Assembly (NCBI GenBank): GCA_964036045.1
Contig: OZ038384.1
Coordinates: 29,059,771-29,123,770 of the forward strand
Length of the DNA: 64,000 nucleotides
Source: Eutreptiella sp. 'Long Island Sound 2002'
Taxonomy: Eukaryota > Euglenozoa > Euglenophyceae > Eutreptiales > Eutreptiaceae
Direction of reading: 5' to 3'
Both the position numbers and the translations under genes were made by a program. The notes under the pieces are model-generated. The model saw only the letters and a list, made by a program, of their open reading frames with translations. It searched no databases and was not told the origin of the DNA. Of the stretch, positions 17,218 to 42,930 are shown piece by piece (position 1 is the stretch's first letter; every line of letters starts with the position of its first letter).

Positions 17218-17519
17218 CCGAAGGCGCTATTACCAAATGGCAAAGGCCGGGATGTCTACCCACGGGTACAGGTAAACGGGCTGGGCTGTGTGTGTTGTGT
17301 GCGCGCTGTGTGTAAGTGTGTTGTGGCATAGCCGGACCAGTGCACTCTCGCACTTGGCCGACACTGCCTTGCCGACGCCTGCGCGCAGTCACACAGGGTC
17401 TCGTGGGCCCACTGCACCCTGCGTGCCGCGCTGCACCATCAGTGCTTATTGTGTGGTGCCGCACTGCTTGGTGCTGTGCACTACACTGCAGTGTGTGTGC
17501 CCTGCTGCACGGTTGTTGT

Positions 17520-20500
17520 GGGCAGAGGGCAGTGGGCAGTGTAACGCACTGCCACGCCGCCTGGGGGGTGTGGGCAGTGGAAATCCTGCTTCACACTGCC
17601 GCATTGCCTGAGGGCAGTGGGGAGTGGTACTCCTGCCATTCTCTGCCTCCCTGCCTTGGGGCAGTGGGCCGGGCATCTCCTGCAATACACTGCCGCCGTG
17701 CCTGGGGCAGTGGTCAGTGGAACTCCTGCGACACACTGCGCCACGGCCCGGGGGCAGGGGGCAGTGGATCTCCTGCAATGCACTGCCTCACTGCCTGGGG
17801 GCAGTGGACAGTGCAACTCCCGCAATACACTGCCCCACTGCCTGGGGGCAGTGGGCAGTGCAACTCCTGCAGTACAATGCCGCACTGCCTAGGGGCAGTG
17901 TGCAGTGGAACTCCCGCAATACACTGCCTCACTGCCCGGGGGCAGTGGACAGTGGACCTTCTGCAACGCACTGCCCCACTGCCTGGGGGCAGTGGGCAGT
18001 GGACCTCCTGCAATGCACTGCCTCACTGCCTGGGGGGCAGTGGGCAGTGCTACTCCTGCAACACACTGGCCCACTGCCTGGGGGCAGTGGGCAGTTGAAC
18101 TCCTGCAATGCACTGCCCCACTGCCTGGGGGCAGTGGGCAGTCGAATCCCCGCAATGCACTGCCTCACTGCCCTGGGGGCAGCGGGCAGTGCAACTCCTG
18201 CAATGCACTGCCTCACTGCCTGGGGGCAGTGGGCAGTGGATCCCCCGCGATGCACTGCCCCACTGTCCTGGGGGCAGTGGGCAGCGGACCCCCTGCAATA
18301 CACTGCCGCACTGCCCGGGGGCAGTGGGCAGTGCAACTCCTGCAACGCACTGACTGCCTCACTGCCTGGGGGCAGTGGACAGTGCAACTTCTGCAATGCA
18401 CTGCCTCACTGCCCTGGGGCAGTGGGCAGTGCAACTCCTGCAATGCACCGACTGCCTCACTGCCGGCAGGCAGTGGACAGTGCAACTCCTGCAATGCACT
18501 GCCTCACTGTCTGGGGGCAGTGGGCAGTGGAACTCCTGCAATGCACTGCCTCACTGCCCTTGAACAGTAGGCAGTGCAACTCCTGCAATGCACTGCCTCA
18601 CTGCGTGGGGGCAGTGGACAGTGCAACTCCTGCAATGTACTGCCTCACTGCCCTGGGGGCAGTGGGCAGTGCAACTCCTGCAATGCACTGCCTCACTGCC
18701 CTGGGGCAGTGGGCAGTGGAACTCCTGCAGTGCACTGCCTCACTGCCTGGGGGCAGCGGGCAGTGCAACTCCTGCAATGCACTGCCTCACTGCCTGGGGG
18801 CAGTGGGCAGTGCAACTCCTGCAATGCACTGCCTCACTGCCCTGGGGCAGTGGGCAGTGCAACTCCTGCAATGCACTGCCTCACTATCTGGGGGCAGTGG
18901 GCAGTGGAACTCCTGCAATGCACTGCCTCACTGCCCTTGAACAGTAGGCAGTGCAACTCCTGCAATGCACTGCCTCACTGCCTGGGGGCAGTGGACAGTG
19001 CAACTCCTGCAATGTACTGCCTCACTGCCCTGGGCGCAGTGGGCAGTGCAACTCCTTCAATGCACTGCCTCACTGCCCTGGGGCAGTGGGCAGTGGAACT
19101 CCTGCAGTGCATTGCCGCACTGCCTGGGGGCAGCGGGCAGTGCAACTCCTGCAATGCACTGCCTCACTGCCTGGGGGCAGTGGGCAGTGCAACTCCTGCA
19201 ATGCACTGCCTCACTGCCCTGGGGCAGTGGGCAGTGGAACTCCTGCAATACACTGCCACACTGCCTGGGGACAGTGGGCAGTGCAGCTCCTGCAATGCAC
19301 TGACTGCCTCACTGCCTAGGGGCAGTGGGCAGTGGAACTCCTGCAATGCACTGCCTCACTGCCTGGGGGCAGTGGACACTGTAACTCGCGCAGTACACCG
19401 CCTCACTGCCCGGGAGCAGTGGGCAGTGCAACTCCTGCGACGCACTGCCTCACTGCCTGGGGGCAGTGGGAAGTGGAACTCCTGCAATACACTGCCTCAC
19501 TGCCTTGGGGCAGTGGGCAGTGCAACTCCTGCAATGCACTGCCTCACTGCCCTCGGGCAGTAGGCAGTGCAACTCCTGCAATGCACTGCCTCACTGCCTA
19601 GGGGCAGTGGGCAGTGGAATTCCTGCAATGCTCTGCCCCACTGCCTGGGGGCAGTGGGCAGCGCAACTCCTGCAATGCCCTATCTCACTGCCTGGGGGCA
19701 GGGGGCAGTGCAACTCCTGCAATACACTGCCACACTGCCTGGGGGCAGTTGGCAGTGCAGTTCCTGCAATGCACTGACTGCCTCACTGCCTAGGGGCAGT
19801 GGGCAGTGCAACTCCTGCAATGCACTGCCTCACTGCCTGGGGGCAGTGGGCAGTGGAACTCCTGCAATGCTCTGGCCCACTGCCTGGAGGCAGTGGGCAG
19901 CGCAACTGATGCAATGCACTGCCTCACTGCCTGGGGGCAGTGGGCAGTGCAGCTCCTGCAATGCACTGACTGCCTCACTGCCTAGGGGCAGTGGGCAGCG
20001 CAACTCCTGCAATGCACTGCCTCACTGCCTGGGGGCAGTGGGCAGTGCAACTCCTGCAATGCACTGCCTCACTGCCCTCGGGCAGTAGGCAGTGCAACTC
20101 CTGCAATGCACCGCCTCACTGCCTGGGGGCAGTGGGCAGTGGAATTCCTGCAATGCTCTGCCCCACTGCCTGGGGGCAGGGGGCAGTGCAACTCCTGCAA
20201 TGCACTGCCTCACTGCCCTCGGGCAGTAGGCAGTGCAACTCCTGCAATGCACCGCCTCACTGCCTGGGGGCAGTGGGCAGTGGAATTCCTGCAATGCTCT
20301 GCCCCACTGCCTGGGGGCAGGGGGCAGTGCAACTCCTGCAATGCTCTGCCCCACTGCCTGGGGGCAGTGGGCAGCGCAACTCCTGCCATACACTGCCGCA
20401 CTGCCTGGGGGCAGTGGGCAGTGCAACTCCTGCAATGCACTGCCTCACTGCCTGGGGGCAGTGGGCAGTGGAACCCCTGCAATGCACTGCCTCACTGCCC

Positions 20501-23485
20501 TCCGGCAGTAGGCAGTGCAACTCCTGCAATGCACCGCCTCACTGCCTGGGGGCAGTGGGCAGTAGAATTCCTGCAATGCTCTGCCCCACTGCCTGGGGGC
20601 AGGGGGCAGCGCAACTCCTGCAATGCCCTATCTCACTGCCTGGGGGCAGGGGGCAGTGCAACTCCTGCAATGCTCTGCCCCACTGCCTGGGGGCAGTGGG
20701 CAGCGCAACTCCTGCCATACACTGCCGCACTGCCTGGGTGCAGTGGGCAGTGTAACTTCTGCAATGCACTGCCTCACTGCCCTCAGGGAGTAGGCAGTGC
20801 AACTCCTGCAGTGCACTGCCCCGCTGCCTGGGGGCAGCGGGCAGTGCAACTCCTGCAATACACTGCCCCACTGCCTGGGGGCAGTGGGCAGTGCAACTCC
20901 TGAAATGCACTGCCTCACTGCCTGGGGGCAGTGGGCAGTGCCGCTCCTGCAATCGGCTGCCGCACTGCCTGGGGGCAGTGGGCAGTGCCGCTCCTGCAAT
21001 CCACTGCCGCACTGCCTGGGGGCAGTGGGCAGTGCAGCTGTTGCAATGCACTGCCTCACTGCCTGGGGGCAGTGGGCAGTGCAACTCCTGCAGTGCACTG
21101 CCTGACTGCCCTCGGGGAGCAGGCAGTTCAACTCATGCAATGCACTGCCTCACTGCCTGGGGGCAGTGGGCAGTGCAACTCCTGCAATGCGCTGCCTCAC
21201 TGCCTGGGAGAAGTGGGCAGTGGAACTCCCGCAATACACCGCCTCACTGCCCGGGAGGAGTGGGCAGTGCAACTCCTGCGATGCACTGCCTCACTGCCTG
21301 GGGGCAGTGGGCAGTGGAACTCCTGCAATACACTGCCCCACTGCCTGGGGGCAGTGGACAGTGCAACCCCTGCAATGCATTACCTCACTGCCTGGGGGCG
21401 GTGGACAGTGCAACACCTGCAATGCACTGCCTCACTGCCTGGGGGCAGTGGGCAGTGCAACTCCTGCAATGCACTGCCTCACTGCCTGGGGGCAGTGGGC
21501 AGTGCAACTCCTGCAATGCTCTGCCCCACTGCCTGGGGGCAGGGGGCAGTGCAACTCCTGCAATGCACTGCCTCACTGCCCTCGGGCAGTAGGCAGTGCA
21601 ACTCCTGCAATGCACCGCCTCACTGCCTGGGGGCAGTGGGCAGTGAAATTCCTGCAATGCTCTGCCCCACTGCCTGGGGGCAGGGGGCAGTGCAACTCCT
21701 GCAATGCTCTGCCCCACTGCCTGGGGGCAGTGGGCAGCGCAACTCCTGCCATACACTGCCGCACTGCCTGGGGGCAGTGGGCAGTGCAACTCCTGCAATG
21801 CACTGCCTCACTGCCTGGGGGCAGTGGGCAGTGGAACCCCTGCAATGCACTGCCTCACTGCCCTCCGGCAGTAGGCAGTGCAACTCCTGCAATGCACCGC
21901 CTCACTGCCTGGGGGCAGTGGGCAGTAGAATTCCTGCAATGCTCTGCCCCACTGCCTGGGGGCAGGGGGCAGCGCAACTCCTGCAATGCCCTATCTCACT
22001 GCCTGGGGGCAGGGGGCAGTGCAACTCCTGCAATGCTCTGCCCCACTGCCTGGGGGCAGTGGGCAGCGCAACTCCTGCCATACACTGCCGCACTGCCTGG
22101 GGGCAGTGGGCAGTGTAACTTCTGCAATGCACTGCCTCACTGCCCTCAGGGAGGAGGCAGTGCAACTCCTGCAGTGCACTGCCCCGCTGCCTGGGGGCAG
22201 AGGGCAGTGCAACTCCTGCAATACACTGCCCCACTGCCTGGGGGCAGTGGACAGTGCAACTCCTGCATTGCACTGTCCCACTGCCTGGGGGCAGTGGGCA
22301 GTTGAACCCCTGCAATGCACTGCCTCACTGCCTGGGAGCAGTGGGCAGTGCAACTCCTGCAATGCACTGCCTCACTGCCTGGGGGCAGTGGGCAGTGCCG
22401 CTCCTGCAATCCACTGCCGCACTGCCGCACTGCCTGGGGGCAGTGGGCAGTGCAGCTCCTGCAATGCACTGCCTCACTGCCTGGGGGCAGTGGGCAGTGC
22501 AACTCCTGCAGTGCACTGCCTGACTGCCCTCGGGGAGCAGGCAGTTCAACTCATGCAATGCACTGCCTCACTGCCTGGGGGCAGTGGGCAGTGGAACTCC
22601 TGCAATGCTCTGCCCCACTGCCTGGGGGCAGTGGGCAGTGCAACTCCTGCAATGCGCTGCCTCACTGCCTGGGGGCAGTGGGCAGTGGAACTCCCGCAAT
22701 ACACCGCCTCGCTGCCCGGGAGGAGTGGGCAGTGCAACTCCTGCGATGCACTGCCTCACTGCCTGGGGGCAGTGGGCAGTGGAACTCCTGCAATACACTG
22801 CCCCACTGCCTGGGGGCAGTGGATAGTGCAACCCCTGCAATGCATTACCTCACTGCCTGGGGGCGGTGGACAGTGCAACACCTGCAATGCACTGCCTCAC
22901 TGCCTGGGGGCAGTGGGCAGTGCAACCCCTGCAATGCATTGCCTCACTCCCCTGGAGCGGTGGGCAGTGCAACTCCTGCAATGCACTGCCTCACTGGCTG
23001 GGGGCAGTGGGCAGTGCAACTCCTGCAATGCACTGCCTCACTGCCTGGGGGCAGTGGGCAGTGCAACTCCTGCAATGCATTGCCCCACTGCCTGGGGGCA
23101 GTGAGCAGTGGAACCCCTGCAATGCACTGCCTCACTGCCCTGGGGCAGTGGGCAGTGCAACTCCTGCAATACACTGCCTCACTGCCTGGGGGCAGTGGGC
23201 AGTGCAACCCCTGCAATGCACTGCCCCACTGCCTGGGGGCGGTGGACAGTGCAACTCCTGCAGTGCACTGCCCCACTGCCTGGGGGCAGTGGGCAGTGCA
23301 ACTCCTGCAATGCACTGCCCCACTGCCCCGGGGCAGTGGACAGTGCAACTCCTGCACTACACTGCCTCACTGCCCTGGGGCAGTGGGCAGTGCAACTTCT
23401 GCAATGCACTGCCTCACTGCCTGGGGGCAGTGGGCAGTGGAACTCTTGCAATGCACTGCCTCACTGCCTGGGGGCAGTGGGCAGC
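17520..23485. repeat. 47-bp hairpin satellite array A
   Basis: About 125 units of 47 bp. Each unit contains GGCAGTGGGCAGTGC, a 12-base spacer (commonly AACTCCTGCAAT) and GCACTGCCTCACTGCC, so both arms can pair over about 15 bp with a single bulge. Units vary mainly at one C/G after the first arm and within the spacer. Because 47 is not divisible by three and stop codons are rare, long open frames appear in all three plus-strand frames and in several minus-strand ones; I treat them as artefacts. Larger blocks are duplicated inside the array (period 1,363 bp, which is 29 units). Confidence 0.95.
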
Positions 23486-26400
23486 GGTCAGTGGTCGGAG
23501 TGTCCTGCAGGGCCTGTGGGGCTGTAGAACCGGGTACACCAGCCTGGGGGGACGGGGAGTCCTGCCCAGGGGGTGGTCGGAGTGTCCTGTAGGGCCTGCG
23601 GGGAGGTAGAATCGGGCACACCGGCCCGGGGGGATGGGGAGTCCTGCCCAGGGGGTGGTCGGAGTGTCTTGCTGGGCCTGTGGGGACGTAGAACCGGGTA
23701 CACCGGCCTGGGGGGATGGGGAGTCCTGCCCAGGGGGTGGTCGGAGCGCCCTGCAGGGCCTGTGGGGACGTAGATTCGGGCACACCGGCCTGGGGGGATG
23801 GGGAGTCCAGCCCAGGGGGTGGTCGGAGTGTCTTGCTGGGCCTGCGGGGAGGTAGATTCGGGCACACCGGCCCGGGGGGACGGGGAGTTCTGCCCAGGGG
23901 GTGGTCAGAGTGTCCTGCAGGGCCTGTGGGGACGTAGAACCGGGCACACCGGCCTGGGGGGATGGAGAGTCCAGCCCAGGGGGTGGTCGGAGTTTCCTGC
24001 AGGGCCTGCGGGGATCGACAACCGGGCCCACCGGCCTGGGGGGATGTGGAGTCCTGCCCAGGGGGTGGTCGGAGTGTCCTGCAGGGCCTGTGGGGACGTA
24101 GATTTGGGCACACCGGCCTGGGGGGATGGGGAGTGCTGCCCAGGGGTTGGTCGGAGTGTCTTGCTGGGCCTGTGGGGAGGTAGATTCGGGCACACCGCCC
24201 CGGGGGGACGGGGATTCCTGCCCAGGGGGTGGTCGGAGTGTCCTGCAGGGCCTGTGGGGACGTAGAACCGGGCACACCGGCCTGGGGGGATGGGGAGTCC
24301 AGCCCAGGGGGTGGTTGGAGTTTCCTGCAGGGCCTGCGGGGATGGACAACCGGGCCCACTGGCCTGGGGAGATGGGGAGTCCTGTCCAGGGGGTGGTCGG
24401 AGCGTCCTGCAGGGCCTGTGGGGACGTAGAACCAGGCACACCGACCTGGGGGGATGGGGAGTCCCGCCTAGGGGGTGGTTGGAGTTTCTTGCAGGGCCTG
24501 CGGGGATAGACAACCGGGCCCACCGGCCTGGGGGGACGGGGAGCCCTGCCCAAGGGGTGGTCGGAGCGTCCCGCAGGGCCTGTGGGGGCGTAGAACCGGG
24601 CACGCCGGCCTGGGGGGACGGGGAGTCCAGCCCAGCGGGTGGCCGGAGTTTCCCGCAGGGCCTGCGGGAATGGACAACCGGGCCCACCGGCCTTGGGGGA
24701 TGGGGAGTCCTGCCCAGGGGGTGGTCGGAGCGTCTTGCAGGGCCTGTGGGGACGTAGAACCGGGCACACCGGCCTGGGGGGATGGGGAGTTCTGCCCAGG
24801 GGGTGGTCGGAGCGTCCTGCAGGGCCTGTGGGGACGTAGAACCGGGCACACCGGCCTGAGGGGATGGGGAGTCCAGCCCAGGGGGTGGTCGGAGTTTCCT
24901 GCAGGGCCTGCGGGGATGGACAACCGGGCCCACCGGCCTAGGGGGATGGGGAGTCCTGCCCAGGGGGTGGTCGGAGCGCCCTGCACGGCCTGTGGGGACG
25001 TAGAACCGGGCACGCCGGCCTGGGGGGACGGGGAGTCCAGCCCAGCGGGTGGCCGGAGTTTCCCGCAGGGCCTGCGGGAATGGACAACCGGGCCCACCGG
25101 CCTTGGGGGATGGGGAGTCCTGCCCAGGGGGTGGTCGGAGCGTCTTGCAGGGCCTGTGGGGACGTAGAACCGGGCACACCGGCCTGAGGGGATGGGGAGT
25201 CCAGCCCAGGGGGTGGTCGGAGTTTCCTGCAGGGCCTGCGGGGATGGACAACCGGGCCCACCGGCCTAGGGGGATGGAGAGTCCTGCCCAGGGGGTGGTC
25301 GGAGCGTCCTGCAGGGCCTGTGGGGACGTAGAACCGGGCACACCGGCCTGGGGGGATGGGGAGTCCAGCCGAGGGGGTGGTTGGAGTTTCCTGCAGGGCC
25401 TGCGGGGATGGACAACCGGGCCTACCGGCCTGGGGAGATGGGGAGTCCTGTCCAGGGGGTGGTCGGAGCGTCCTGCAGGGCCTGTGGGGACGTAGAACCA
25501 GGCACACCGGCCTCGGGGGATGGGGAGCCCCGCCTAGGGGGTGGTTGGAGTTTCTTGCAGGGCCTGCGGGGATAGACAACCGGGCCCACCGGCCTGGGGG
25601 GACGGGGAGCACTGCCCAAGGGGTGGTCGGAGCGTCCCGCAGGGCCTGTGGGGGCGTAGAACCGGGCACGCCGGCCTGGGGGGATGCAGAGTCCAGCCCA
25701 GCGGGTGGCCGGAGTTTCCCGCAGGGCCTGCGGGAATGGACAACCGGGCCCACCGGCCTTGGGGGATGGGGAGTCCTGCCCAGGGGGTGGTCGGAGCGTC
25801 TTGCAGGGCCTGTGGGGACGTAGAACCGGGCACACCGGCCTGGGGGGATGGGGAGTTCTGCCCAGGGGGTGGTCGGAGCGTCCTGCAGGGCCTGTGGGGA
25901 CGTAGAACCGGGCACACCGGCCTGGGGGGATGGGGAGTCCAGCCCAGGGGGTGGTCGGAGTTTCCTGCAGGGCCTGCGGGGATGGACAACCGGGCCCACC
26001 GGCCTGGGGGGACGGGGAGTTCTGCCCAGGGGGTGGTCGGAGCGTCCTGCAGGGCCTGTGGGGACGTAGAACCGGGCACACCGGCCTGGGGGGATGGGGA
26101 GTCCAGCCCAGGGGGTGGTCGGAGTTTCGTGCAGGGCCTGCGGGGATGGACAACCGGGCCCACTGGCCTGAGGGGATGGGGAGTCCTGCCCAGGGGGTGG
26201 TCGGAGCGTCCTGCAGGGCCTGTGGGAACGTAGAACCGGGCACACCGGCTTGGGGGGATGGGGAGTCCAGCCCAGGGGGTGGTCGGAGTTTCCTGCAGGG
26301 CCTGCGGGGATGGACAACCGGGCCCACCGGCCTGGGGGGATGGGGAGTCCTGCCCAGGGGGTGGTCGGAGTTTCCTGCAGGGCCTGCGGGGATGGACAAC

Positions 26401-26930
26401 CGGGCCCACCGGCCTAGGGGGATGGGGTGTCCTGCCCAGGGGGTGGTCGGAGCGCCCTGCACGGCCTGTGGGGACGTAGAACCGGGCGCACCGGCCTGGG
26501 GGGATGGGGAGTCCTGCCCAGGGGGTGGTCGGAGCGTCCTGCAGGGCCTGTGGGGACGTAGAACCGGGCGCACCGGCCTGGGGGGATGGGGAGTCCTGCC
26601 CTGGGGGTGGTCGGAGCGTCCTGCAGGGCCTGTGGGAGCGTAGAACCGGGCACACCGGCCTGAGGGGATGGGGAGTCCAGCCCAGGGGGTGGTCGCAGTT
26701 TCCTGCCGGGCCTGCGGGGATGGACAACCGGGCCTGGGGGGATGGGGAGTCCAGCCCAGGGGGTGGTCGGAGTTTCCTGCAGGGCCTGCGGGGATAGACA
26801 ACCGGGCCCAGCGGCCTGGGGGGATGGGGAGTCCTGCCCATGGGGTGGTCGGAGCGCCCTGCAGGGCCCGTGGGGACGTAGAACCGGGCGCACTGGCCTG
26901 GGGGGGACGGGGAGCCCAGCCCAGGGGGTG
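23486..26930. repeat. 82-bp satellite array A
   Basis: About 42 tandem units of 82 bp. Each contains GTGGTCGGAG, GTCCTGCAGGGCCTG, CCGGGCACACCGGCCTGG and GGAGTCC(A/T)GCCCAGGGGG. Blocks of 13 units (1,066 bp) are repeated, for example the sequence near 24,475 again at 25,541. Long minus-strand proline/arginine-rich frames run through it. They follow the repeat and are not evidence of a gene. Confidence 0.95.
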
Positions 26931-27150
26931 TTCGGAGCCTCCTGCTTGGCCATTGGGGGGCCATCTTCTTCTGAGAACCGGGCGCACCGGCTTGGGGGGG
27001 ACGGGGAGTCCAGCGCAGGGGGTGTTCGGAGCCTCCTGCAAGGCCATTGGGGGGCCAGTATCTTCGGAGAACCGGGCGCACCGGCCTGGGGGGGACGGGG
27101 AGCCCAGCCCAGGGGGTGTTCGGAGCCTCCGGCAGGACCCGTGGGTACTC
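26931..27150. repeat. 94-bp satellite variant, about 2.5 units (A)
   Basis: The last units change from the 82-bp to a 94-bp form: GTGTTCGGAGCCTCCTGC replaces GTGGTCGGAGCGTCCTGC, and about 12 bases (around GGGGCCATCTTCTT) are added. The same variant forms a longer array in element B at 39,850-41,400. Confidence 0.85.
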
Positions 27151-27189
27151 CCTCCTACCTCTTAGCAGCAGCAGGCAAGTAAGCAGGCA

Positions 27190-27490
27190 GTACCGGGGGT
27201 CATAACCCCGGGGTAACAGTATCTGGGACTCAACGTGAGTCCTCTTAACCAAGAACAACCCCAAACACCGCCGGGGCTTAACTCCCGAACGTAACGGTGT
27301 TTGGGGCCCCCGTGGGCCTTATGAGCCCACGGAGTGTACTGAGGCGTGGCTACCAGCACTTAAAGTCTGGCCTGCCATACCCATTTCTGGGCTCGCCTCA
27401 GTACGGCCGGTCGGGTCTGGCTCTGGGGGCTGCGGACTAAACCGGCACCGGGAGAGGGCCGTTTTACCCGGTTAAGCATTATTTATGGCA
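27190..27490. ncRNA. Conserved multi-hairpin block, copy A
   Basis: Successive inverted repeats occur: GGACTCA/TGAGTCC at 27,226-27,242; CCCCAAACACCG/CGGTGTTTGGGG at 27,259-27,306, with a smaller stem inside; and CCGTGGGC/GCCCACGG at 27,310-27,332. An ACCGG/CCGGT pair follows near 27,440-27,475. Element B keeps all of them, with a compensatory change in the 12-bp stem. The block lies between ORF1 and the satellite arrays. A structured element RNA is the likely meaning. The strand and function are unknown; it matches no RNA family I recognise. Confidence 0.5.
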
Positions 27491-27816
27491 GTAGGCACTA
27501 ATTATTACATTAGGGTTTTACTCAGCGCATTTGTTTACCCCGCAGACATGCCCCTCCAGTGGTGCGCTCACCTTTGGGGCTGCCTTTGGGGGATCGGGGG
27601 CTGTTACCCCTCCCGGACGCCCTCCCTGGTGTTGGCGCCGGGGTGGTGGCCGGGGGGCCTTATACCGTACCTCAAAGGATGTTGGATACCCTTACCGGGG
27701 CGTCCAGCCGGACGGGTGCCCTGGGGGGCATTCTCAATCCAATTTTCGTCTATCCTCTGCTTCTATTCGTGTGCGTTAAAAATCAGTCGGCGAGGCATTC
27801 AGCTACCTCAAGAGTG

Positions 27817-28614: not shown

Positions 28615-28644
28615 GGGTAGAGCTGGGGAGTACTCACACACCAC

Positions 28645-28744
28645 ACTACACCACAATATGCCGCAACACGCAACACTATGCAATCGCTTCACGCCATGCC
28701 ATGCGGCAATGGATCCATACACGCTATTTTGTCCCATAGTGCTG
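28645..28744. repeat. 100-bp block duplicated at 16,962-17,061
   Basis: From CACCACACTACACCACAATA to the start of the pentamer tract this sequence appears identical to 16,962-17,061. Both copies directly precede a (TGTGG)n tract followed by a minus-strand LINE 3' end. Confidence 0.85.
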
Positions 28745-29640: not shown

Positions 29641-29667
29641 TAAAAGAAGAAATGGATGGACTTCCGC

Positions 29668-30724: not shown

Positions 30725-33700
30725 GCAGGGGGCAGTGGGCAGTGTTGCGCACTGCCTGGGGGCTGTGGGCAATGGAAATAGTGCTTCACACTGCCGCATT
30801 GCCTGAGGGCAGTGGGGAGTGGTACTCCCGCCGCTCACTGCCTCCCTCCCTTGGGGCAGTGGGCCGGGCATCTCCTGCAATACACTGCCGCCCTGCCTGG
30901 GGCAGTGGGCAGTGGTACTCCTGCGACACACTGCGCCGCGGCCTGGGGGCAGTGGGCAGTGGACCTCCTGCAACGCACTGCCTCACTGCCTGGGGGCAGT
31001 GGGCAGTGGGACTTTTGCAATGCGCTGCTCCACTGCCTGGGGGCAGGGGGCAGTGGATCCCCTGCAATGCACTGCCTCACTGCCTGGGGGCAGTGGGCAG
31101 ATGAACTCCTGCAATAGACTGCCCCACTGCCTGGGGGCAGTGGGCAGTGGGCCTTCCGCAATGCACTGCCCCACTGCCTGGGGGCAGTGGGCAGTGCAAC
31201 TTCTGCAATGCACTGCCTCACTGCCTGGGGGCAGTGGGCAGTGCAACTCCTGCAACACACTACCTCACTGCCCGGGAGCAACGGGCAGCGGACCTCCTGC
31301 AATGCACTGCCCCACTGCCACTGGGGGCAGTGGGCAGTGGAACCCCTGCAATGCACTGCCTCACCGCTTGGGAGCAGTGGGCAGTGGAACTCCTGCAATG
31401 CACTGCCGCACTGCCTGAGGCAGTGGGCAGTGCAATTCCTGCAATGCACTGCCTCACTGCCCGGGGGCAGTGGGCAGTGGACCTGCTGCAATAGACTGCC
31501 TCACTGCCTGGGGGCAGTGGGCAGTGGACCTCCTGCAACACACTGCCGCACTGCCTGGGGGCAGTGGGCAGTGGACCTCCTTCAATGCACTGCTCCACTG
31601 CCTGGGGGCAGTGGGCAGTGGACCTCCTGCAACACACTGCCTCACTGCCTGGGGGCAGTGGGCAGTGGACCTCCTGCAATGCACTGCCGCACTGCCTGGG
31701 AACAGTGGGCAGTGGACCTCCTGCAATCCACTGCCTCACTGCCTGAGGCAGTGGGCAGTGCAATTCCTGCAATGCACTGCCTCACTGCCCGGGGGCAGTG
31801 GGCAGTGGACCTCCTGCAATACACTGCCGCACTGCCTGGGGGCAGTGGGCAGTGGACCTCCTTCAATGCACTGCTCCACTGCCTGGGGGCAGTGGGCAGT
31901 GGACCTCCTGCAACACACTGCCTCACTGCCTGGGGGCAGTGGGCAGTGGACCTCCTTCAATGCACTGCCCCACTGCCTGGGGGCAGTGGGCAGTGCAACT
32001 CCTGCAATCCACTGCCTCACTGCCTGGGGGCAGTGGGCAGTGGACCTCCTTCAATGCACTGCCCCACTGCCTGGGAACAGTGGGCAGTGGACCTCCTGCA
32101 ATCCACTGCCTCACTGCTTGAGGCAGTGGGCAGTGCAATTCCTGCAATGCACTGCCTCACTGCCCGGGGGCAGTGGGCAGTGGACCTCCTGCAATACACC
32201 GCCTCACTGCCTGGGGGCAGTGGGCAGTGGACCTCCTGCAATACACTGCCGCACTGCCTGGGGGCAGTGGGCAGTGGACCTCCTTCAATGCACTGCTCCA
32301 CTGCCTGGGGGCAGTGGGCAGTGGACCTCCTGCAACACACTGCCTCACTGCCTGGGGGCAGTGGGCAGTGGACCTCCTTCAATGCACTGCCCCACTGCCT
32401 GGGGGCAGTGGGCAGTGCAACTCCTGCAATCCACTGCCTCACTGCCTGGGGGCAGTGGGCAGTGGACCTCCTTCAATGCACTGCCCCACTGCCTGGGAGC
32501 AGTGGGCAGTGGACCTCTTGCAATGCACTGCCTCACTGCCTGGGGGCAGTGGGCAGTGGAACCCCTGCAATGCACTGCCTCACTGCCTGGGGGCAGTGGG
32601 CAGTGGACCTCCTGCAATGCACTGCCTCACTGCCTGGGGGCAGTGGACAGTGCAGCTTCTGCAATGCACTGCCGCACTGCCTAGGGGCAGTGGGCAGTGG
32701 ACCTGCTGCAATAGACTGCCCCACTGCCTGGGGGCAGTGGGCAGTGCAACTCCTGCAATGCACTGCCCCACTGCCTGGGGGCAGTGGGCAGTGCAACTCC
32801 TGCAATAGACTGCCCCACTGCCTGGGGGCAGTGGGCAGTGCAACTCCTGCAATCCTCTGCCTCACTGCCTGGGGGCAGTGGGCAGTGCAATTCCTGCAAT
32901 GCACTGCCCCACTGCCTGGGGGCAGTGGGCAGTGCAACTCCTGCAATACACTGCCTCACGCAGTGGGCAGTGGAACTCCCGCAATACATTGCCTCATTGC
33001 TTGGGGGCAGCGGGCAGTGCACATCCCCCAATGCACTGCCCCCATGCCTGGGGGCAGGGGGCAGTGGACCTCCTGCAATACACTGCCTTCCTGCCTGGGG
33101 GCAGTGGGCAGTGGACCCCGTGCAATACACCGCCTCACGGCCTGACGGAAGCAGGCAGTGCAACTCCTGCAATGCACTGCCTCACTGCCTGGGGGCAGTT
33201 GGCAGTGGAACCGCTGCAATGCACTGCCCCTAGCCTGGGGGGAGTGGGCAGTGCAACTCCGGCAACGCACTGCCTCACTGCCTGGGGGCACGGGACAGTG
33301 CAACTTCTGCAATGCACTGCCCCACTGCCTGGGGGCAGTGGGCAGTGGGACCCCTGCAATGCACGGCCTCACTGCCTGGGGGCAGTGGACAGTGCAACTC
33401 ACTGCAACGCACTGCCTCACTGCCTGGGGGCAGTGGGCAGTGCAACTCCTGCAATGCACTACCCCACTGCCTGCGGGCAGTGGGCAGTGCAAATTCTGCA
33501 ATGCACTGCCCCACTGCCTGGGGGCAGTGGGCAGTGCAACTCCTGCAATACACTGCCTCACGCAGTGGGCAGTGGAACTCCCGCAATACGTTGCCTCATT
33601 GCTTGGGGGCAGCGGGCAGTGCACATCCCCCAATGCACTGCCCCCATGCCTGGGGGCAGGGGGCAGTGGACCTCCTGCAATACACTGCCTCACTGCCTGG

Positions 33701-36700
33701 GGGCAGTGGGCAGTGGACCCCGTGCAATACACCGCCTCACTGCCTGACGGAAGCAGGCAGTGCAACTCCTGCAATGCACTGCCTCACTGCCTGGGGGCAG
33801 TTGGCAGTGGAACCGCTGCAATGCACTGCCCCCTGCCTGGGGGGAGTGGGCAGTGCAACTCCGGCAACGCACTGCCTCACTGCCTGGGGGCACGGGACAG
33901 TGCAACTTCTGCAATGCACTGCCCCACTGCCTGCGGGCAGTGGGCAGTGCAACTGCTGCAATGCACTGCCTCACTGCCTGGGGGCAGTGGACAGTGCAAC
34001 TCCTGCAATGCACTGCCTCACAGCCTGGGGGCGGTGGGCAGTGGAACTCCTGCAATGCACCGCCTCACTGCCTGGGGGCAGTGGGCAGCGCAACTCTTGC
34101 AATGCGCTGCCTCACTGCCTGGGGGCAGTGGACAGCGCAACTCCTGCAATGCACTGCCCCACTGCCTGGGGGCAGTGGGCAGTGGACCTCCTGCAATCCA
34201 CTGCCTCACTGCCTTGGGGCAGTGGGCAGCGCAACTCCTGCAATGCACTGCCCCACTGCCTGCGGGCAGTGGGTAGTGCAACTCCTGCAATGCACTGCCG
34301 CACTGTCTGGGGGCATTGGGCAGCGCAACTCCTGCAATGCACTGCCTCACTGCCCTGGGGCAGTGGGCAGTGCAACTCCTGCAATGCACTGCCGAACTGC
34401 CTGGGGGCAGTGGACAGTGCAACTTTTGCATTGCACTGCCTCACTGCCTGGGGGCAGTGGGCAGTGGAACCCCTGCAATGCACTGCCTCATTGCCTGGGG
34501 GCAGTGGGCAGTGGAACCCCTGCAATACACTGCCGCACTGTCTGGGGGCAGTGGGCAGTGGAACTTCTGCAATGCACTGCCCCACTGCCTGGGGGCAGTG
34601 GGCAGTGCAACTCCTGCAATGCACTCCCTCACTGCCTGGGGGCAGTGGGCAGTGCAACTCCTGCAATACACTGCCGCGCTGTCTGGGGGCAGTGACCAGC
34701 GCAACTCCTGCAATGCACTGCCCCACTGCCTGGGGGCAGTGGGCAGTGGACCTCCGGCAATACACTGCCGCACTGCCTGGGGGCAGTGGGCAGTGCAACT
34801 CCTGCAATGCACTGCCTCACAGCCTGGGGGCAGTGGGCAGTGCAACTCCTGCAATGCACTGCCTCACTGCCTGGGAGCAGTGGACAGTGCAACCTCTGCA
34901 TTGCACTGTCCCACTGCCTGGGGGCAGTGGACAGTGCAACTCCTGCAATGCACTGCCGCATTGCCTGGGGGCAGTGGGCAGTGCAACTCCTGCAATGCAC
35001 TGCCTCACTGCCTGGGAGCAGTGGACAGTGCAACCTCTGCATTGCACTACCTCACTGCCTGGGGGCAGTGGGCAGTGCAACTTCTGCAATGCACTGCCCC
35101 ACCGCCGGGGGGCAGTGGGCAGTGGAACCCCTGCAATGCGCTGCCTCACTGCCCTGGGGGCAGTGGGCAGCGCAATTCCTGCAACGCACTGCCTCACTGC
35201 CTGGGGGCAGTGGGCAGTGCAACGCCTGCAATGCACTGCCCCACTGCCTGGGGGCAGTGGGCAGTGCAACTCGTGCAATGCACTGCCGCACTGCCTGGGG
35301 GCAGTGGGCAGTGGAACTCCTGCAATGCACTGCCGCACTGCCTGGGGGCAGTGGGCAGTGGACCTCCGGCAATACACTGCCGCACTGCCTGGGGGCAGTG
35401 GGCAGTGCAACTCCTGCAATGCACTGCCTCACTGCCTGGGGGCAGTGGGCAGTGGAACTCCTGCAATGCACTGCCTCACTGCCTGGGGGCAGTGGGCAGC
35501 GGAACTCCCGCAATGCACTGCCCCACTGCCTGGGGGCAGTGGGCAGTGCAACTCCTGCAATACACTGCCGCACTGTCTGGGGACAGTGGGCAGCGCAACT
35601 CCTGCAATGCACTGCCGCACTGCCTGGGAGAAGTGGGCAGCGGAACTCCCGCAATGCACTGCCCCACTGCCTGGGGGCAGTGGGCAGTGCGACTCCTGCA
35701 ATACACTGCCGCACTGTCTGGGGGCAGTGGGCATGGAACTTCTGCAATGCACTGCCCCACTGCCTGGGGGCAGTGGGCAGTGGAACCCCTGCAATACACT
35801 GCCTCATTGCCCCGGGGGCAGTGGGCAGTGCAACTCCTGCAATGCACTCCCTCACTGCCTGGGGGCAGTGGGCAGTGCAACTCCTGCAATACACTGCCGC
35901 GCTGTCTGGGGGCAGTGACCAGCGCAACTCCTGCAATGCACTGCCCCACTGCCTGGGGGCAGTGGGCAGTGGACCTCCGGCAATACACTGCCGCACTGCC
36001 TGGGGGCAGTGGGCAGTGCAACTCCTGCAATGCACTGCCTCACAGCCCGGGGGCAGTGGGCAGTGCAACTCCTGCAATGCACTGCCTCACTGCCTGGGAG
36101 CAGTGGACAGTGCAACCTCTGCATTGCACTGTCCCACTGCCTGGGGGCAGTGGACAGTGCAACTCCTGCAATGCACTGCCGCACTGCCTGGGGGCAGTGG
36201 GCAGTGCAACTCCTGCAATGCACTGCCTCACTGCCTGGGGGCAGTGGGCAGTGCAACTCCTGCAATGCACTGCCGAACTGCCTGGGGGCAGTGGACAGTG
36301 CAACTTTTGCATTGCACTGCCTCACTGCCTGGGGGCAGTGGGCAGTGGAACCCCTGCAATGCACTGCCTCATTGCCTGGGGGCAGTGGACAGTGGAACCC
36401 CTGCAATGCACTGCCCCACTGCCTGGGGGCAGTGGGCAGTGCAACTCCTGCAATGCACTGCCCCACTGCCTGGGGGCAGTGGGCAGTGGAACCCCTGCAA
36501 TGCACTGCCTCACTGCCTGGGGGCAGTGGGCAGTGCAACTCCTGCAATGCACTGCCCCACTGCCTGGGGGCAGTGGGCAGTGGACCTCCGGCAATACACT
36601 GCCGCACTGCCTGGGGGCAGTGGGCAGTGCAACTCCTGCAATGCACTGCCTCACAGCCTGGGGGCAGTGGGCAGTGCAACTCCTGCAATGCACTGCCTCA

Positions 36701-39700
36701 CTGCCTGGGAGCAGTGGACAGTGCAACCTCTGCATTGCACTGTCCCACTGCCTGGGGGCAGTGGACAGTGCAACTCCTGCAATGCACTGCCTCACTGCCT
36801 GGGAGCAGTGGACAGTGCAACCTCTGCATTGCACTACCTCACTGCCTGGGGGCAGTGGGCAGTGCAACTTCTGCAATGCACTGCCCCACCGCCGGGGGGC
36901 AGTGGGCAGTGGAACCCCTGCAATGCGCTGCCTCACTGCCCTGGGGGCAGTGGGCAGCGCAATTCCTGCAACGCACTGCCTCACTGCCTGGGGGCAGTGG
37001 GCAGTGCAACGCCTGCAATGCACTGCCCCACTGCCTGGGGGCAGTGGGCAGTGCAACTCCTGCAATGCACTGCCGCACTGCCTGGGGGCAGTGGGCAGTG
37101 GAACTCCTGCAATGCACTGCCGCACTGCCTGGGGGCAGTGGGCAGTGGACCTCCGGCAATACACTGCCGCACTGCCTGGGGGCAGTGGGCAGTGCAACTC
37201 CTGCAATGCACTGCCTCACTGCCTGGGGGCAGTGGGCAGTGGAACTCCTGCAATGCACTGCCTCACTGCCTGGGGGCAGTGGACAGTGCAACTCCTGCAA
37301 TGCACTGCCTCACTGCCTGGGGGCAGTGGGCAGTGCAACTGCTGCAATGCACTGCCTCACTGCCTGGGGGCAGTGGACAGTGCAACTCCTGCAATGCACT
37401 GCCGCACTGCCTGGGGGCAGTGGGCAGTGCAACTCCTGCAATACACTACCTCACTGCCTGGGGGCAGTGGACAGTGCAACTCCTGCAGTGCACTGCCCCG
37501 CTGCCTGGGGGCAGTGGGCAGTGCAACTCCTGCAATGCAGTGCCCCACTACCTGGGAGCAGTGGACAGTGCAACGTCTGCATTGCACTGCCTCACTGCCC
37601 TGGGGGCAGTGGGCAGTGCAACTTCTGCAATGCACTGCCCCACTGCCGGGGGGCAGTGGGCAGTGGAACCCCTGCAATGCACTGCCTCACTGCCCTGGGG
37701 GCAGTGGGGAGTGCAATTCCTGCAATGCACTGCCGCACTGTCCGAGGGCAGTGGGCAGTGGAACTCCTGCAATGCACTGCCTCACTGCCTGGGGGCAGTG
37801 GACAGTGCAACTCCTGCAATGCACTGCCTCACTGCCTGGGGGCAGTGGGCAGTGCAACTGCTGCAATGCACTGCCTCACTGCCTGGGGGCAGTGGACAGT
37901 GCAACTCCTGCAATGCACTGCCGCACTGCCTGGGGGCAGTGGGCAGTGCAACTCCTGCAATGCACTGCCTCACTGCCTGGGGGCAGTGGACAGTGCAACT
38001 CCTGCAATGCGCTGCCCCACTGCCTGGGGGCAGTGGGCAGCGCAACTCCTGCAATGCACTGCCTCACTGCCTGGGGGCAGTGGGCAGTGCAACTCCTGCA
38101 ATGCACTGCCCCACGGCCTGGGGGCAGTGGACAGTGCAACTTCTGCAATGCACTGCCTCACTGCCCTGGGGGCAGTGGGCAGTGGAACTTCTGCAATGCA
38201 CTGCCCCACTGCCTGGGGGCAGTGGGCAGTGGAACCCCTGCAATACACTGCCTCACTGCCCTGGGGGCAGTGGGCAGTGCAATTCCTGCAATGCACTGCC
38301 TCACTGCCTGGGGGCAGTGGGCAGCGCAACTCCTGCAATGCACTGCCCCACTGCCTGGGGGCAGTGGGCAGTGCAACTCCTGCAATGCACTGCCTCACTG
38401 CCTGGGGGCAGTGGGCAGTGGACCTCCTGCAATGCATTGCCTCACTGCCTGGGGCCAGTGGACAGTGCAACTTCTGCAACGCACTGCCCCACTGCCTGGG
38501 GGCAGTGGGCAGTGCAACTCCTGCAACGCACTGCCTCACTGCCTTGGGGCAGTGGGCAGTGCAACTCCTGCAATACACTGCCGCACTGTCTGGGGGCAGT
38601 GGGCAGCGCAACTCCTGCAATGCACTGCCCCACTGCCTGGGTGCAGTGGGCAGTGGACCTCCGGCAATACACTGCCGCACTGCCTGGGGGCAGTGGGCAG
38701 TGCAACTCCTGCAATGCACTGCCACACTGCCTGGGGGCAGTGGGCAGTGGACCTCCTGCAATACACTGCCTCACTGCCTGGGGCCAGTGGACAGTGCAAC
38801 TTCTGCAACGCACTGCCCCACTGCCTGGGGGCAGTGGGCAGTGCAACTCCTGCAATGCACTGCCTCACTGCCTGGGGGCAGTGGACAGTGCAACTCCTGC
38901 AATGCACTGCCCCACTGCCTGGGGGCAGTGGGCAGCGCAACTCCTGCAAAGCACTGCCTCACTGCCTGGGAGCAGTGGGCAGTGCAACTCCTGCAAAGCA
39001 CTGCCCCACTGCCTGGGGGCAGTGGACAGTGCAACTTCTGCAATGCACTGCCCCACTGCCTGGGGGCAGTGGGCAGTGGAACCCCTGCAATGCACTGCCT
39101 CACTGCCCTGGGGGCAGTGGGCAGTGTAAATCCTGCAATGCACCGCCTCACTGCCTGGGGGCAGTGGGCGGTGCAGCTCCTGCAATACACTGCCGCACTG
39201 TCTGGGGGCAGTGGGCAGCGCTATTCCTGCAATGCACTGCCGCACTGCCTGGGGGCAGTGGGCAGTGGACCTCCGGCAATACACTGCCGCACTGCCTGGG
39301 GGCAGTGGGCAATGCAACTTCTGCAATGCACTGCCTTACTGCCTGGGGGCAGTAGGCAGTGGAACTCCTGCAATGCACTGCCTCACTGCCTGGGGGCAGT
39401 GGACAGTGCAACTCCTGCAATGCACTGCCCCACTGCCTGAGGGCAGTGGGCAGTGCAACTCCTGCAATACACTGCCGCACCGCCTGCGGGCAGTGGGCAG
39501 CGCAACTCCTGCAATGCACTGCCCCACTGCTTGGGGGCAGTGGGCAGTGCAACTCCTGCAATACACTGCCGCACCGCCTGGGGGCAGTGGACAGTGCAAC
39601 TCCCGCAATGCACTGCCCCACTGCCTGGGGGCAGTGGGCAGTGCAACTCCTGCAATACACTGCCGCACTGTCTGGGGGCAGTGGGCAGCGGAACTCCTGC

Positions 39701-39765
39701 AATGCACTGCCCCACTGCCTGGGGGCAGTGGGCAGTGGACCTCCGGCAATACACTGCTGCACTGC
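30725..39765. repeat. 47-bp hairpin satellite array B
   Basis: About 190 units of the same 47-bp hairpin unit as array A. Internal duplications are visible: sequence near 35,052-35,466 recurs at 36,839-37,253 (offset about 1,787 bp, close to 38 units), and 33,158-33,400 recurs at 33,760-34,000 (offset about 602 bp, with partial units). The longest plus-strand open frame covers 34,316-39,355, but its peptide simply repeats every 47 residues. Confidence 0.95.
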
Positions 39766-41400
39766 CATGGGGTGGTCGGAGTGTCCTGCAGGGCCTGTGG
39801 GGATGTACTACCCGGCGCACCAGCCTGGGGGGATGGGGAGTCCACCCCAGGGGGTGGTCGGGGCATCCTTCAGGGCCTATGGGGGGCCATCATCTTCGGA
39901 GAACCGGGCGCACCGGCCTGGGGGGGACGGGGAGTCCAGCCCACGGGGTGGTCGGAGCCTCCTGCAAGGCCCATGGGGAGCCAGCATCTTCCTAGAACTG
40001 GGCGCACCGGCCTGGGGGGACGGGGGGTCCTGCCCAGGGGGTGGCCGGAGTATTTTTCAGGGCCCATGGGGAGGCGTCATCTTCGGAGAACCGGGCGCAC
40101 CGGCCTGGGGGGGACGGGGAGTCCAGCCCAGGGGGTGTTCGGAGCCTCCTGCAAGGCCCACGCGGAGCCATCCTCTTCTAATAACCGGGCGCACCGGCCT
40201 GGGGGGGACGGGGAGTCCAGCCCAGGGGGTGGTCGGAATCTCCTGCAAGGCCCATGGGGAGCCATCATCTTCCAATAACCGGGCGCACCGGCCTGGGGGG
40301 GACGGGGAGTCCAGCCCAGGGGGTGGTCGGAGTATCCTGCAGGGCCCATGGGGAGGCATCATCCTTCAAAAACCGGGCGCACCGGCCTGGGGGGGACGGG
40401 GAGTCCAGCCCAAAGGGTGGTCGGGGCATCCTTCAAGGCCAATGGGGGGCCATCTGCTTCACAGAACCGGGCGCACCAGCTTGGGGGGGACGGGGAGTCC
40501 AGCCCAGGGGGTGTTCGGAGCCTCCTGCAAGGCCCGTGGGGAGCCATCATCCTTCAAGAACCGGGCGCACCGGCCTGGGGGGGACGGGGAGTCCAGCCCA
40601 GGGGGTGGTCGGGGCGTCCTTCAAGGCCAATGGGGGGCCATCTGCTTCGGAGAACCCGGCGCACCGGCCTGGGGGGGACGGGGAGTCCAGCCCAGGGGGT
40701 GTTCGGAGCCTCCTGCCAGGCCAATGGGGGGCCATTATCTTCGGAGAACCGGGCGCACCGGCCTGGGGGGGACGGGGAGTCCAGCCCAGGGGGTGTTCGG
40801 AGCCTCCTGCAAGGCCCGTGGGGAGCCATCATCCTTCTTCAACCGGGCGCACCGGCCTGGGGGGAACGGGGAGTCCAGCCGAGGGGGTGGTCGGGGCATC
40901 CTTCAAGGCCAATGGGGGGCCATCTGCTTCGGAGAACCGGGCGCACCGGCCTGGGGGGGACGGGGAGTCCAGCCCAGGGGGTGTTCGGAGCCTCCTGCCA
41001 GGCCAATGGGGGGCCATCTCCTTCAGAGAACCGGGCGCACCGGCCTGGGGGGGACGGGGAGTCCTGCCCAGGGGGTGTTCGGAACCTCCTGCAAGGCCAA
41101 TGGGGGGCCATCTGCTTCAGAGAACCGGGCGCACCAGCTTGGGGGGGACGGGGAGTCCTGCCCAGGGGGTGTTCGGAGCCTCCTGCCAGGCCAATGGGGG
41201 GCCATCTCCTTCAGAGAACCGGGCGCACCGGCCTGGGGGGGACGGGGAGTCCTGCCCAGGGGGTGTTCGGAGCCTCCTGCAAGGCCGATGGGGGGGGGTC
41301 ACCGTCTCCAGAGAACCGGGCGCACCAGCCTGGGGGGGACGGGAAGTCCTGCCCAGGGGGTGCTCGGAGCCTCCTGCAAGACCCGTAGGGAGCCACCATC
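39766..41400. repeat. 94-bp satellite array B, with one or so 82-bp units at its left edge
   Basis: About 16 units of 94 bp follow one GTGGTCGGAGTGTCCTGCAG unit of the 82-bp type. A local three-unit periodicity (282 bp) is visible, for example 40,547-40,735 against 40,829-41,017. The array directly adjoins the hairpin block and the 3' part of ORF1. Confidence 0.9.
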
Positions 41401-42898
41401 CTGTAAGGCCCCTTACCCCTTGTCCCACTACGCTAGGCAGCAAGGCAGTAGGGCAGCAGTACCGGGGGTCATAACCCCGGGGTAGCAGTATCTGGGACTC
41501 AACGTGAGTCCTCTTAACCAAGAACAACCCCAAATACCGCCGGGGCTTAACTCCCGAACGTAACGGTATTTGGGGCCCCCGTGGGCCTTTTAAGCCCACG
41601 GAGTGTACTGGGGCGTGGCTACCAGCACTTAAAGTCTGGCCTGCCATACCCAATTCTGGGCTCGCCTCAGTACGGCCGGTCGGGTCCGGCTCTGGGGGCT
41701 GCGCACTAAAACTGGCACCGGGAGAGGGCCATTTTTACCCGGTTAAGCATTATTTATGGCAGTAGGCACTAAATATTACATTAGGGAATTACGCAGCGCA
41801 TTTGTTTACCCCGCAGACATGCCCCTCCAGTGGTGCGCTCACCTTTGGGGCTGCCTTTGGGGGATCGGGGGCTGTTACCCCTCCCGGACGCCCTCCCTGG
41901 TGTTGGCGCCGGGGTGGTGGCCGGGGGGCCTTATACCGTACCTCAAAGGATGTTGGATACCGGTACCGGGGCGTCCAGCCGGACGGGGACGGGGACGGTT
42001 CCTCCAACAACTTGACAGGGCGCAGCCCCGCAGCACCGGTCTTGAGAACACCAGCGTTGCCACTGGCCCTTCTCAGCAAACTCTCTGAGAAAGCGTTCTG
42101 AGTATCATCAGTCAAGACCCTGGTACCAGCGTGCCGGAATATTAGATTCGTCTGCCTGTTCGCCACTCCTGCAAGGCAGAGCCTTGGCACCGAGCAGTAG
42201 TCACCTCGCGGAACCAGTCTGCAGGTCCAGCTGGCACATTTTGGACTCTTTCTGAAAGTGACTGCATCTGCAGCGACTTTGACCTGCACCTCTGCTCCTG
42301 TGGCCCCGGGACCCCCAGGCCAGTTTCCAGGCACCGCGCCTCTGCTAGGGCGGGGGCCCCTCACATGCACCCTCCGGGGCCCTTTCCACCTGCACACCTG
42401 GACGCTTGCCATGAAGACCCCGTACTGGAGCCTTCTCGGTGGCGCGTCCGGGCCCAGTTGTTCACGCGGCCGGCCGCCGATGCGGGGCCCTGGAGGCGCG
42501 CCGCACGGGCGCTGCCAGCCTGTGAGAGGGGCAAGGGCAGAAGAAGGGGGTGGGGGGGGGGGGGGGCAGTGGGCAGGGGAGGTGGCAGGGAGCGGCCGCG
42601 GGAGGTAGTGCATGGGGGGCACCGAGTGCTGCATGGGGGTGTGTGGGATGGAGTTGGGGCAGAGGGCCCTGTGGGTGGGGCAAAGGCGTTGAGGGGAGAT
42701 GGAGGGGGAGGCTGTACCAGCCGTCCTCTCTAGGGATCGCTGGTCCGTTCCCGGGGCCCTGGCGGCCGGTACTAGGGGGCCGCGGGCTCCCTCGGGGGTG
42801 GTGCTTGGCACTGGCGCGCGCGTACACCCGACACTGTTAGTACACCACCCCTTTGGGTGGTGCCCGGGCCCTGTCGTCGGGGGCTTCGCACCCGGCAC
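41117..42898 (-). CDS. LINE ORF1-like protein reading into the satellite (element B)
   Basis: Read with TAA and TAG as sense, one frame runs from 42,898 (GTG; the ATG of element A is ACG here) to TGA at 41,117, 593 codons. With the standard code it breaks at TAA near 41,789. Homology to A and E1 supports the first half: PGAKP, then PLTGWQRPCGAPPGPRIGG. The second half crosses the hairpin block and enters 94-bp repeats, so it is proline-rich and repetitive. At least one single-base length difference from element A occurs in the hairpin block, so the second half may not be protein-coding. Confidence 0.3.
41465..41760. ncRNA. Conserved multi-hairpin block, copy B
   Basis: This has the same series of stems as copy A. 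The 12-bp stem is CCCCAAATACCG (41,528-41,539) with CGGTATTTGGGG (41,564-41,575). Compared with copy A, both members of one base pair have changed (C-G to T-A) and the stem stays perfect. The next stem, CCGTGGGC/GCCCACGG (41,579-41,601), is unchanged while its loop differs by two bases. Confidence 0.5.
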
Positions 42899-42930
42899 CC
42901 AGCCCGTGAGTAGAGCTGGGGAGTACTCAG

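Follow-up and report, generated by a model that had tools for sequence, protein, structure and literature searches.

A dispersed family of non-autonomous, probably LINE-derived composite retrotransposons carrying satellite arrays in Eutreptiella

A stretch of 64,000 nucleotides from Eutreptiella sp. 'Long Island Sound 2002' (assembly GCA_964036045.1, contig OZ038384.1, positions 29,059,771 to 29,123,770; hereafter the window) contains two large elements, A and B, which are probably members of a dispersed family of composite, non-autonomous retrotransposons that derive from an autonomous long interspersed nuclear element (LINE), named here LINE X, and that carry and spread satellite arrays. Feature numbers given for the window are positions within this stretch, and both elements are read on its minus strand. 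Their modules follow one another in identical order: a LINE-type 5′ leader, a mosaic of large-subunit (LSU) ribosomal RNA (rRNA) pieces, a structured block, an array of 82/94-bp units, an array of 47-bp units and a 3′ module of about 330 bp (Table 1). The 5′ terminal sequence of the family is TGAGTACTCC, and A and B share both ends with LINE X, a putative autonomous partner in the same genome. It has long been asked how satellite DNA comes to occupy new chromosomal sites; in this family, two kilobase-scale satellites ride in a retroelement at fixed positions with their unit order kept between the loci compared, and array turnover can thus be measured across many near-identical copies.

Dispersed copies and inheritance of the arrays

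The genome (2.28 Gb in 2205 contigs) was searched with the 5′ end of A. This gave 42 rows (the best 40 of 1206 candidates were scored) on many large contigs, with 96-99% identity except for the window's own and two short pieces. With the structured block, the best 40 of 1468 candidates were scored and showed 98-100% identity. Stretches of 10 kb were taken at 20 of the 39 other full matches to the 5′ end of A, mostly from the top of the list; L-numbers (L009, L020, L034 and so on) are the labels of genome stretches taken for comparison. The leader, the rRNA pieces, the structured block and the 82/94-bp array occur in this order in all twenty A-type copies, and the 47-bp array comes next in eighteen, the other two stretches ending within the 82/94-bp array. 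The 3′ module is reached in seven stretches, while seven stop within the 47-bp array and four (L017, L019, L025 and L027) have this array interrupted by other sequence. In L012 only 405 bp of the structured block and 183 bp of the 82/94-bp array remain. The mean identity of the unique parts among the twenty copies and A is 98.7% (96.4-99.8%).

B represents a second subfamily. Identity between A and B is about 83-84% over the 5′ modules, 95-96% over the structured block (27160-27720 and 41437-41987, respectively) and 93% over the last ~325 bp. A segment private to B gave thirteen near-full-length matches, B included (best 40 of 638 candidates scored). Two copies of this subfamily that were read in part, L035 and L036, possess the 5′ block, rRNA mosaic, structured block, 94-bp array and 47-bp array in order, the first three being 98.9-99.7% identical to those of B. 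L035 starts one pentamer after a LINE 3′ end and its stretch stops inside the 47-bp array; in L036 the leader aligns over only 88 bp (94%), and 4.4 units of the 47-bp array are in view.

A sequence-only reading of the window had proposed a non-autonomous LINE derivative that carries, and may spread, megasatellite arrays, and had suggested a search for further copies of the same order. The many dispersed copies bear this out, with twenty of twenty stretches for the A type and L035 and L036, in part, for the B type. The equal order of the arrays in A and B agrees with the coordinates obtained with Tandem Repeats Finder (TRF), by which window arrays were called, and is repeated by all twenty relatives as far as the stretches reach. 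The difference in array size also holds, for the 47-bp arrays (17546-23484 in A, 30750-39772 in B) and for the 82-type units, of which B holds part of one. The listing of 82-bp and 94-bp arrays as separate entities had to be abandoned: the 82-bp unit is the 94-bp unit minus 12 bases, so the two are one satellite.

The 82/94-bp array measures 183 to 6512 bp in the eighteen complete cases and more than 8.3 kb in two cut cases; for the 47-bp array, the seven cases seen to the 3′ module give 2922 to 5679 bp. Over pairs of eighteen copies, the difference in array length showed no correlation with sequence divergence (Spearman 0.10, p = 0.21). Arrays of chosen pairs were compared by gapped alignment with the alignment to a unit-shuffled partner (one shuffle per pair). 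The identity of 82/94-bp arrays in ten chosen pairs, A-B apart, was 96.5-98.8% versus 92.6-95.0% after shuffling, and that of 47-bp arrays in eight such pairs 95.0-98.7% versus 91.1-93.9%. Gaps between the aligned arrays, as printed for the chosen pairs, are mostly whole multiples of the unit. Given this shared unit order and the mostly whole-unit differences, the arrays travel with the element.

The GC (guanine plus cytosine) content of the 47-bp arrays is 0.62-0.65 (2-kb windows over the arrays), and a dimer of the 47-bp consensus is predicted to form strong hairpins in both strands (z of -7.1 and -7.7). The 82- and 94-bp consensus units folded no better than shuffles. The 47-bp array of B was also observed to be open over 1679, 1447 and 1143 amino acids in three plus-strand frames (34316-39355 and overlapping frames).

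LINE X and the origin of the modules

A full-length LINE X of 11,849 bp was identified upstream of L020, with pentamers following its end. It is laid out as a 5′ leader, a structured block, about eighteen units of the 94-bp satellite, long open reading frames (ORF1 and ORF2) and the last 105 bp, and no 47-bp array was found in this copy. It resembles A in the leader (92.6% over 310 bp), the block (95.2%) and the last 105 bp (93.3%). In the window, the last ~105 bp and pentamer tail of A and B are common to LINE remnant C (43653; 87%), element D (29079; 81% over 93 bp) and two further remnants, P2 (16920; 71%) and P1 (10795; 68%); P1, P2 and C are decayed relatives of LINE X.

As far as the copies read show, the structured block and 94-bp array appear to be leader parts of LINE X itself, and the 47-bp array and rRNA mosaic to be the derivative's own. 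The earlier view that satellite had replaced the coding body thus stands for the 47-bp array only, since the structured block and the 94-bp array both lie in LINE X between the 5′ end and the ORFs. Nor was the ORF1 placed in the shared LINE 5′ end retained: the stretch so named contains rRNA pieces, two ORFs tested there overlap these pieces without a Pfam match, and the long ORFs of LINE X sit behind the arrays. ORF2 of LINE X had no match inside A or B within the window, and its only matches in the twenty A-type stretches, thirteen of which stop before the 3′ module, were in the upstream neighbours of L009 and L020. A progenitor of the 47-bp satellite was also sought inside LINE X, with no significant match. 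A search for 'phages' gave no match.

Identity to ORF2 of LINE X (P0074) is 94-100% at all 25 places scored, out of 8850 candidates. In 24 of these the match covers residues from 365-461 onward, and ten of the 25 matches are without a stop. P0074 lacks about 820 bp that are present in other copies, a part that by eye we take to resemble an APE-type endonuclease. Motifs resembling those of reverse transcriptase, RNase H and zinc knuckles, recognized by eye, are presumably also present in ORF2. Weak sub-threshold matches to zf-RVT were obtained in four of ten cases in one search and one of six in another. With the same 5′ end, structured block, 94-bp array and 3′ end, LINE X is likely the helper of the A/B family. 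A predicted protein (P0072) possessing a TRIP13 N-terminal domain (Pfam 5e-10), a pentamer-encoded stretch and LINE X ORF2 suggests an insertion of LINE X by a TRIP13 gene.

The reference for the rRNA mosaic was a 9557-bp tandem ribosomal DNA (rDNA) unit on contig C4 (L034), in which Rfam marks small-subunit (SSU), 5.8S and LSU rRNA. Two LSU pieces at the start of the mosaic are common to both subfamilies (unit positions 4258-4332, followed by 3544 onward), after which B switches to 2560-2734; all pieces are in the sense of the element, and their order is the reverse of that in rDNA. No rDNA match occurs at the mosaic position of the LINE X copy read. An Rfam search on B gave no rRNA match, unlike its counterpart in A, and a whole-window Rfam scan at gathering thresholds, which listed no match, also overlooked the LSU piece of A. 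The mosaic was likely born by template switching during reverse transcription. The tandem rDNA itself spans C4:42673017-42768587 with a spacing of 9557 bp; its SSU match covers 2226 nt, and its LSU match is poor and in pieces (856.8 bits). So long an SSU and so fragmented an LSU would suit a euglenid and probably not a primate.

In LINE X both ORFs are preceded by a 5′ leader that includes the structured block and a 94-bp array. The derivative has a hairpin-forming array of 47-bp units in the position of the two ORFs, retains the last ~105 bases of LINE X and bears the mosaic of sense-oriented LSU-rRNA pieces between the 5′ end and the structured block. A probable course of events can be outlined. 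Once transcribed, the derivative RNA, arrays included, would be reverse-transcribed in trans by LINE X proteins that recognize its 3′ end, with synthesis of the complementary DNA starting from a nick in an array of the (CACAC)n type, which in many cases would be the tail left by an older LINE. Because of such priming, copies would build head-to-tail chains. Whole arrays would reach new loci in this way, and their length would shift between copies mostly by gain or loss of whole units.

Insertion sites and alternative explanations

A is an insertion, since the 106 bases before its 5′ end recur without mismatch behind its pentamer tail. In 17 of the 18 copies with the junction in view the 5′ end comes directly after pentamers, that of L027 being degenerate, and in eight of the 18 (L009, L010, L011, L015, L017, L019, L020 and L025) a LINE 3′ end can be seen no more than 1 kb upstream, separated from the element by pentamers. 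L015 is flanked at either end by (CACAA)n instead of the (CACAC)n found with most others, so that the pentamer 'tail' looks like target. The shared 3′ end with pentamer tail described from the sequence alone is upheld for the ~105 bp common to LINE remnants, and the pentamers would belong to the target. Telomere addition was considered as well; the internal duplication of A speaks against it, for A.

Within the window, LINE remnant C, B, the 1.3-kb element D, a further 106 bp and then A form a minus-strand chain that is split by (CACAC)n arrays. The spacing of 1.8 kb between A and B, together with their equal orientation and module order, is what a local segmental duplication of one odd locus would give. 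This explanation, which had been put forward as a possible refutation of a mobile family, is refuted by the dispersed copies and retains next to no probability: A and B fall into two subfamilies, about 83% identical in their 5′ modules and each with copies elsewhere, their flanks differ, and A has a private target-site duplication. The other refutation named in the sequence-only reading, LINE termini and arrays combined nowhere but here, likewise fails, as there are many other copies. Long tandem arrays are hard to assemble, and an assembly artefact might be suspected; it is very unlikely, given that arrays with shared unit order stand at separate loci between unique modules.

Spread at the DNA level, by ectopic recombination, gene conversion or circular DNA between pentamer arrays, would fit the observation that the flanks in view are nearly always pentamer arrays, as recombination would leave equal junctions. 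It is nevertheless improbable, because in 17 of 18 copies the pentamers adjoin one and the same 5′ terminal sequence, the 106-bp duplication of A is not made of pentamers, and the ends of the elements belong to a LINE family with open ORF2 copies. A somewhat smaller probability is given to many independent internal deletions of LINE X, each joining a satellite already inside it. That 47-bp arrays can adjoin LINE X at different points is indicated by a third type of derivative, whose 47-bp array leads directly into the last ~600 bp of LINE X, comprising the end of ORF2 and the 3′ end (L033 and L032 joined, 1-4489). The two rRNA pieces are present in all twenty A-type copies and absent from the LINE X copy read, and unit order is common to the arrays of the chosen pairs; these shared features argue for the replication of one derived lineage.

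Several observations weigh against a retrotransposon family derived from and mobilized by LINE X. A clear duplication was found in A only: of the target-site junctions that the sequence-only reading had singled out for mapping, that of A shows 106 identical bases, but the flanks of L010, L011, L015 and L021 share just pentamers and those of L012 are ~80% similar. In the sole LINE X copy read at full length, frame breaks interrupt ORF2. Neither Pfam nor PDB gave a match at cut-off for the ORF2 of LINE X, its alignment with that of a second LINE (LINE Z, see below) covered the zinc-knuckle part only, or nothing, and a predicted structure of one piece was uninformative (mean predicted local distance difference test score of 27). 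As the stretches came mostly from the top of the list, the A-type sample consists of close relatives of A, and older members are under-sampled. The arrays of A and B are no more identical to each other than to a shuffled partner (0.897 vs 0.912 and 0.904 vs 0.916), the real alignments having higher coverage (0.69 vs 0.59 and 1.00 vs 0.88) and fewer gaps (17 vs 23 and 23 vs 50), so that little shared unit order appears to be left between the two subfamilies.

Table 1. Features of elements A and B and of related sequences in the window
Feature	Position	Strand	Remarks
Element A	28635 (5′ end) to 17218 (3′ end)	-	11.4 kb; 20/20 relatives with equal order as far as stretches reach
Element B	42930 (5′ end) to 30421 (3′ end)	-	12.5 kb; second subfamily; copies L035 and L036 read in part
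5′ leader of A	28240..28635	-	LINE X 92.6% over 310 bp; P1 68.5% over 378
Structured ('hairpin') block of A	27160..27720	-	RNA fold z = -4.9 (27150-27720); LINE X 95% (95.2%)
Structured block of B	41437..41987	-	95-96% identical to block of A
LSU-rRNA piece in A	27911..27984	-	rDNA unit L034 4258-4332, 92%; in 20/20 A-type copies
LSU-rRNA piece in A	27762..27918	-	L034 3544-3700, 86.6%; Rfam RF02543, 74.5 bits (threshold 50); in 20/20 A-type copies
LSU-rRNA piece in B	42221..42294	-	L034 4258-4332, 86.7%
LSU-rRNA piece in B	42187..42228	-	L034 3544-3585, 88%
LSU-rRNA piece in B	42021..42195	-	L034 2560-2734, 95.4%
82/94-bp array of A	23491..27134	-	TRF: 82-bp 23491-27145; ~3 units of 94 bp at 26880-27134
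94-bp array of B	39765..41390	-	TRF: 94-bp 39810-41380; part of one 82-type unit at 39765-39810
47-bp array of A	17546..23484	-	TRF; about 126 units; consensus unit predicted to fold as hairpin
47-bp array of B	30750..39772	-	TRF; about 192 units
3′ module of A	17218..17546	-	Last ~105 bp = LINE X at 93%
3′ module of B	30421..30745	-	Last ~105 bp = LINE X at 95%
Target-site duplication of A, upstream copy	28638..28743	-	106 bases; identical to 16957-17062
Target-site duplication of A, downstream copy	16957..17062	-	Behind pentamer tail; no mismatch
(CACAC)n array behind A	17063..17217	-	TRF
(CACAC)n array behind B	30381..30420	-	TRF
Pentamer array behind LINE remnant C	42931..43652	-	TRF; 5′ end of B abuts
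LINE remnant C, family X	43653..46773	-	ORF2 residues 744-1845 with gaps, and 105-bp 3′ end; B sits behind
P1, decayed LINE X copy	6826..10795	+	A-like 5′ leader, then only later ORF2 (residues 1158-1847)

LINE Z, known systems and neighbouring features

A further LINE, LINE Z, interrupts the 47-bp array in L017, L019 and L025 (with L029 and L030), in both orientations (3 of the 18 arrays seen whole or in part), and is apparently specialized on the 47-bp satellite. Its tail is of the (CTC)n type, and the copy in L019 was recognized by eye from its protein. Open frames of 1031 (ORF1) and 1830 (ORF2) amino acids were identified in L025 joined with L029, and ORF2 had Pfam matches under curated cut-offs to RVT_1 (2e-5) and Exo_endo_phos_2 (5e-4). 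The idea that the missing body of A and B was the LINE sequence seen beyond the 47-bp array in L017 and L025 was rejected in favour of a nested LINE Z, because the array resumes behind it and L019 holds LINE Z reversed. A three-level system may tentatively be envisaged, though it is rather doubtful: a LINE with a leader satellite, a gene-less derivative with a second, hairpin satellite and rRNA pieces, and LINE Z landing on the 47-bp satellite, the arrays being a working part (through RNA structure, promoter or helper binding) and not passengers.

An excerpt of one account (PMC4432496) describes SVA, LAVA, PVA and FVA as non-autonomous, LINE-1-mobilized elements specific to hominoid primates, with a central GC-rich repeat of 30-50 bp units, a shared CT-hexamer/Alu-like 5′ end and, for the SVA/LAVA group, a non-random unit order. 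By this description SVA/LAVA would be the closest analogue of the A/B family: both are non-autonomous composites of unrelated pieces with a GC-rich central tandem array (the 47-bp units in A/B) and non-random unit order, and LINE mobilization in trans is stated for the SVA group and would apply to A/B. The A/B family differs in its LINE X-derived ends, its two arrays reaching several kb, its rRNA mosaic and its pentamer target, and is not a member of the group because its 5′ end is that of LINE X and not CT-hexamer/Alu-like. The family would form an equivalent of SVA assembled from different components.

LINE derivatives that have become non-autonomous by loss of their coding regions, with both LINE ends kept and ORF2 gone, are a known class; the A/B elements differ from them in having kilobases of 47-bp satellite where the ORFs stood, as well as rRNA pieces. 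The carriers in a study of plant satellites are reportedly long terminal repeat elements. Internal tandem repeats of plant retrotransposons that become satellite arrays are described in the part of that source consulted (PMC7004042). Unlike these, the A/B family is of LINE type and has each of its two satellites at a fixed position. Helentrons are DNA elements of the Helitron group. In the oyster, according to a portion of another source, they are non-autonomous mobile elements that spread satellite-like arrays through the genome (PMC7492417). The A/B elements, in contrast, are probably LINE-derived. LINEs such as Zepp integrate into repeats or into the tails of one another and form head-to-tail chains, a likeness to the chains of LINE copies seen here, and we know of no satellite-carrying derivative of Zepp-type LINEs. 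The A/B elements also differ from R2-type 28S-specific LINEs, as their LSU pieces are internal and their sites are pentamer arrays in 17 of the 18 copies in view. No LINE derivative of the A/B form was found in the literature searched, comprising titles and abstract openings of the top matches among open-licence papers.

Element D (29079-30380, 1.3 kb) possesses an X-type 3′ end and pentamer tail with an unrelated body, which encodes a 236-residue ORF (29668-30378, minus strand) with cysteine/histidine motifs recognized by eye and no Pfam match. P1 contains a stretch (7332-7485) with 63% similarity (1.4e-5) to one portion of the structured block, inverted relative to the direction of the element. 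Degenerate pentamer arrays of other types (GTGCA, CACTG) are located at 48883-49486, 55227-55571 and 56983-57317, and the first 3700 positions of the window (1-3700) contain diverged arrays of 41-bp units, partly in opposite orientations.

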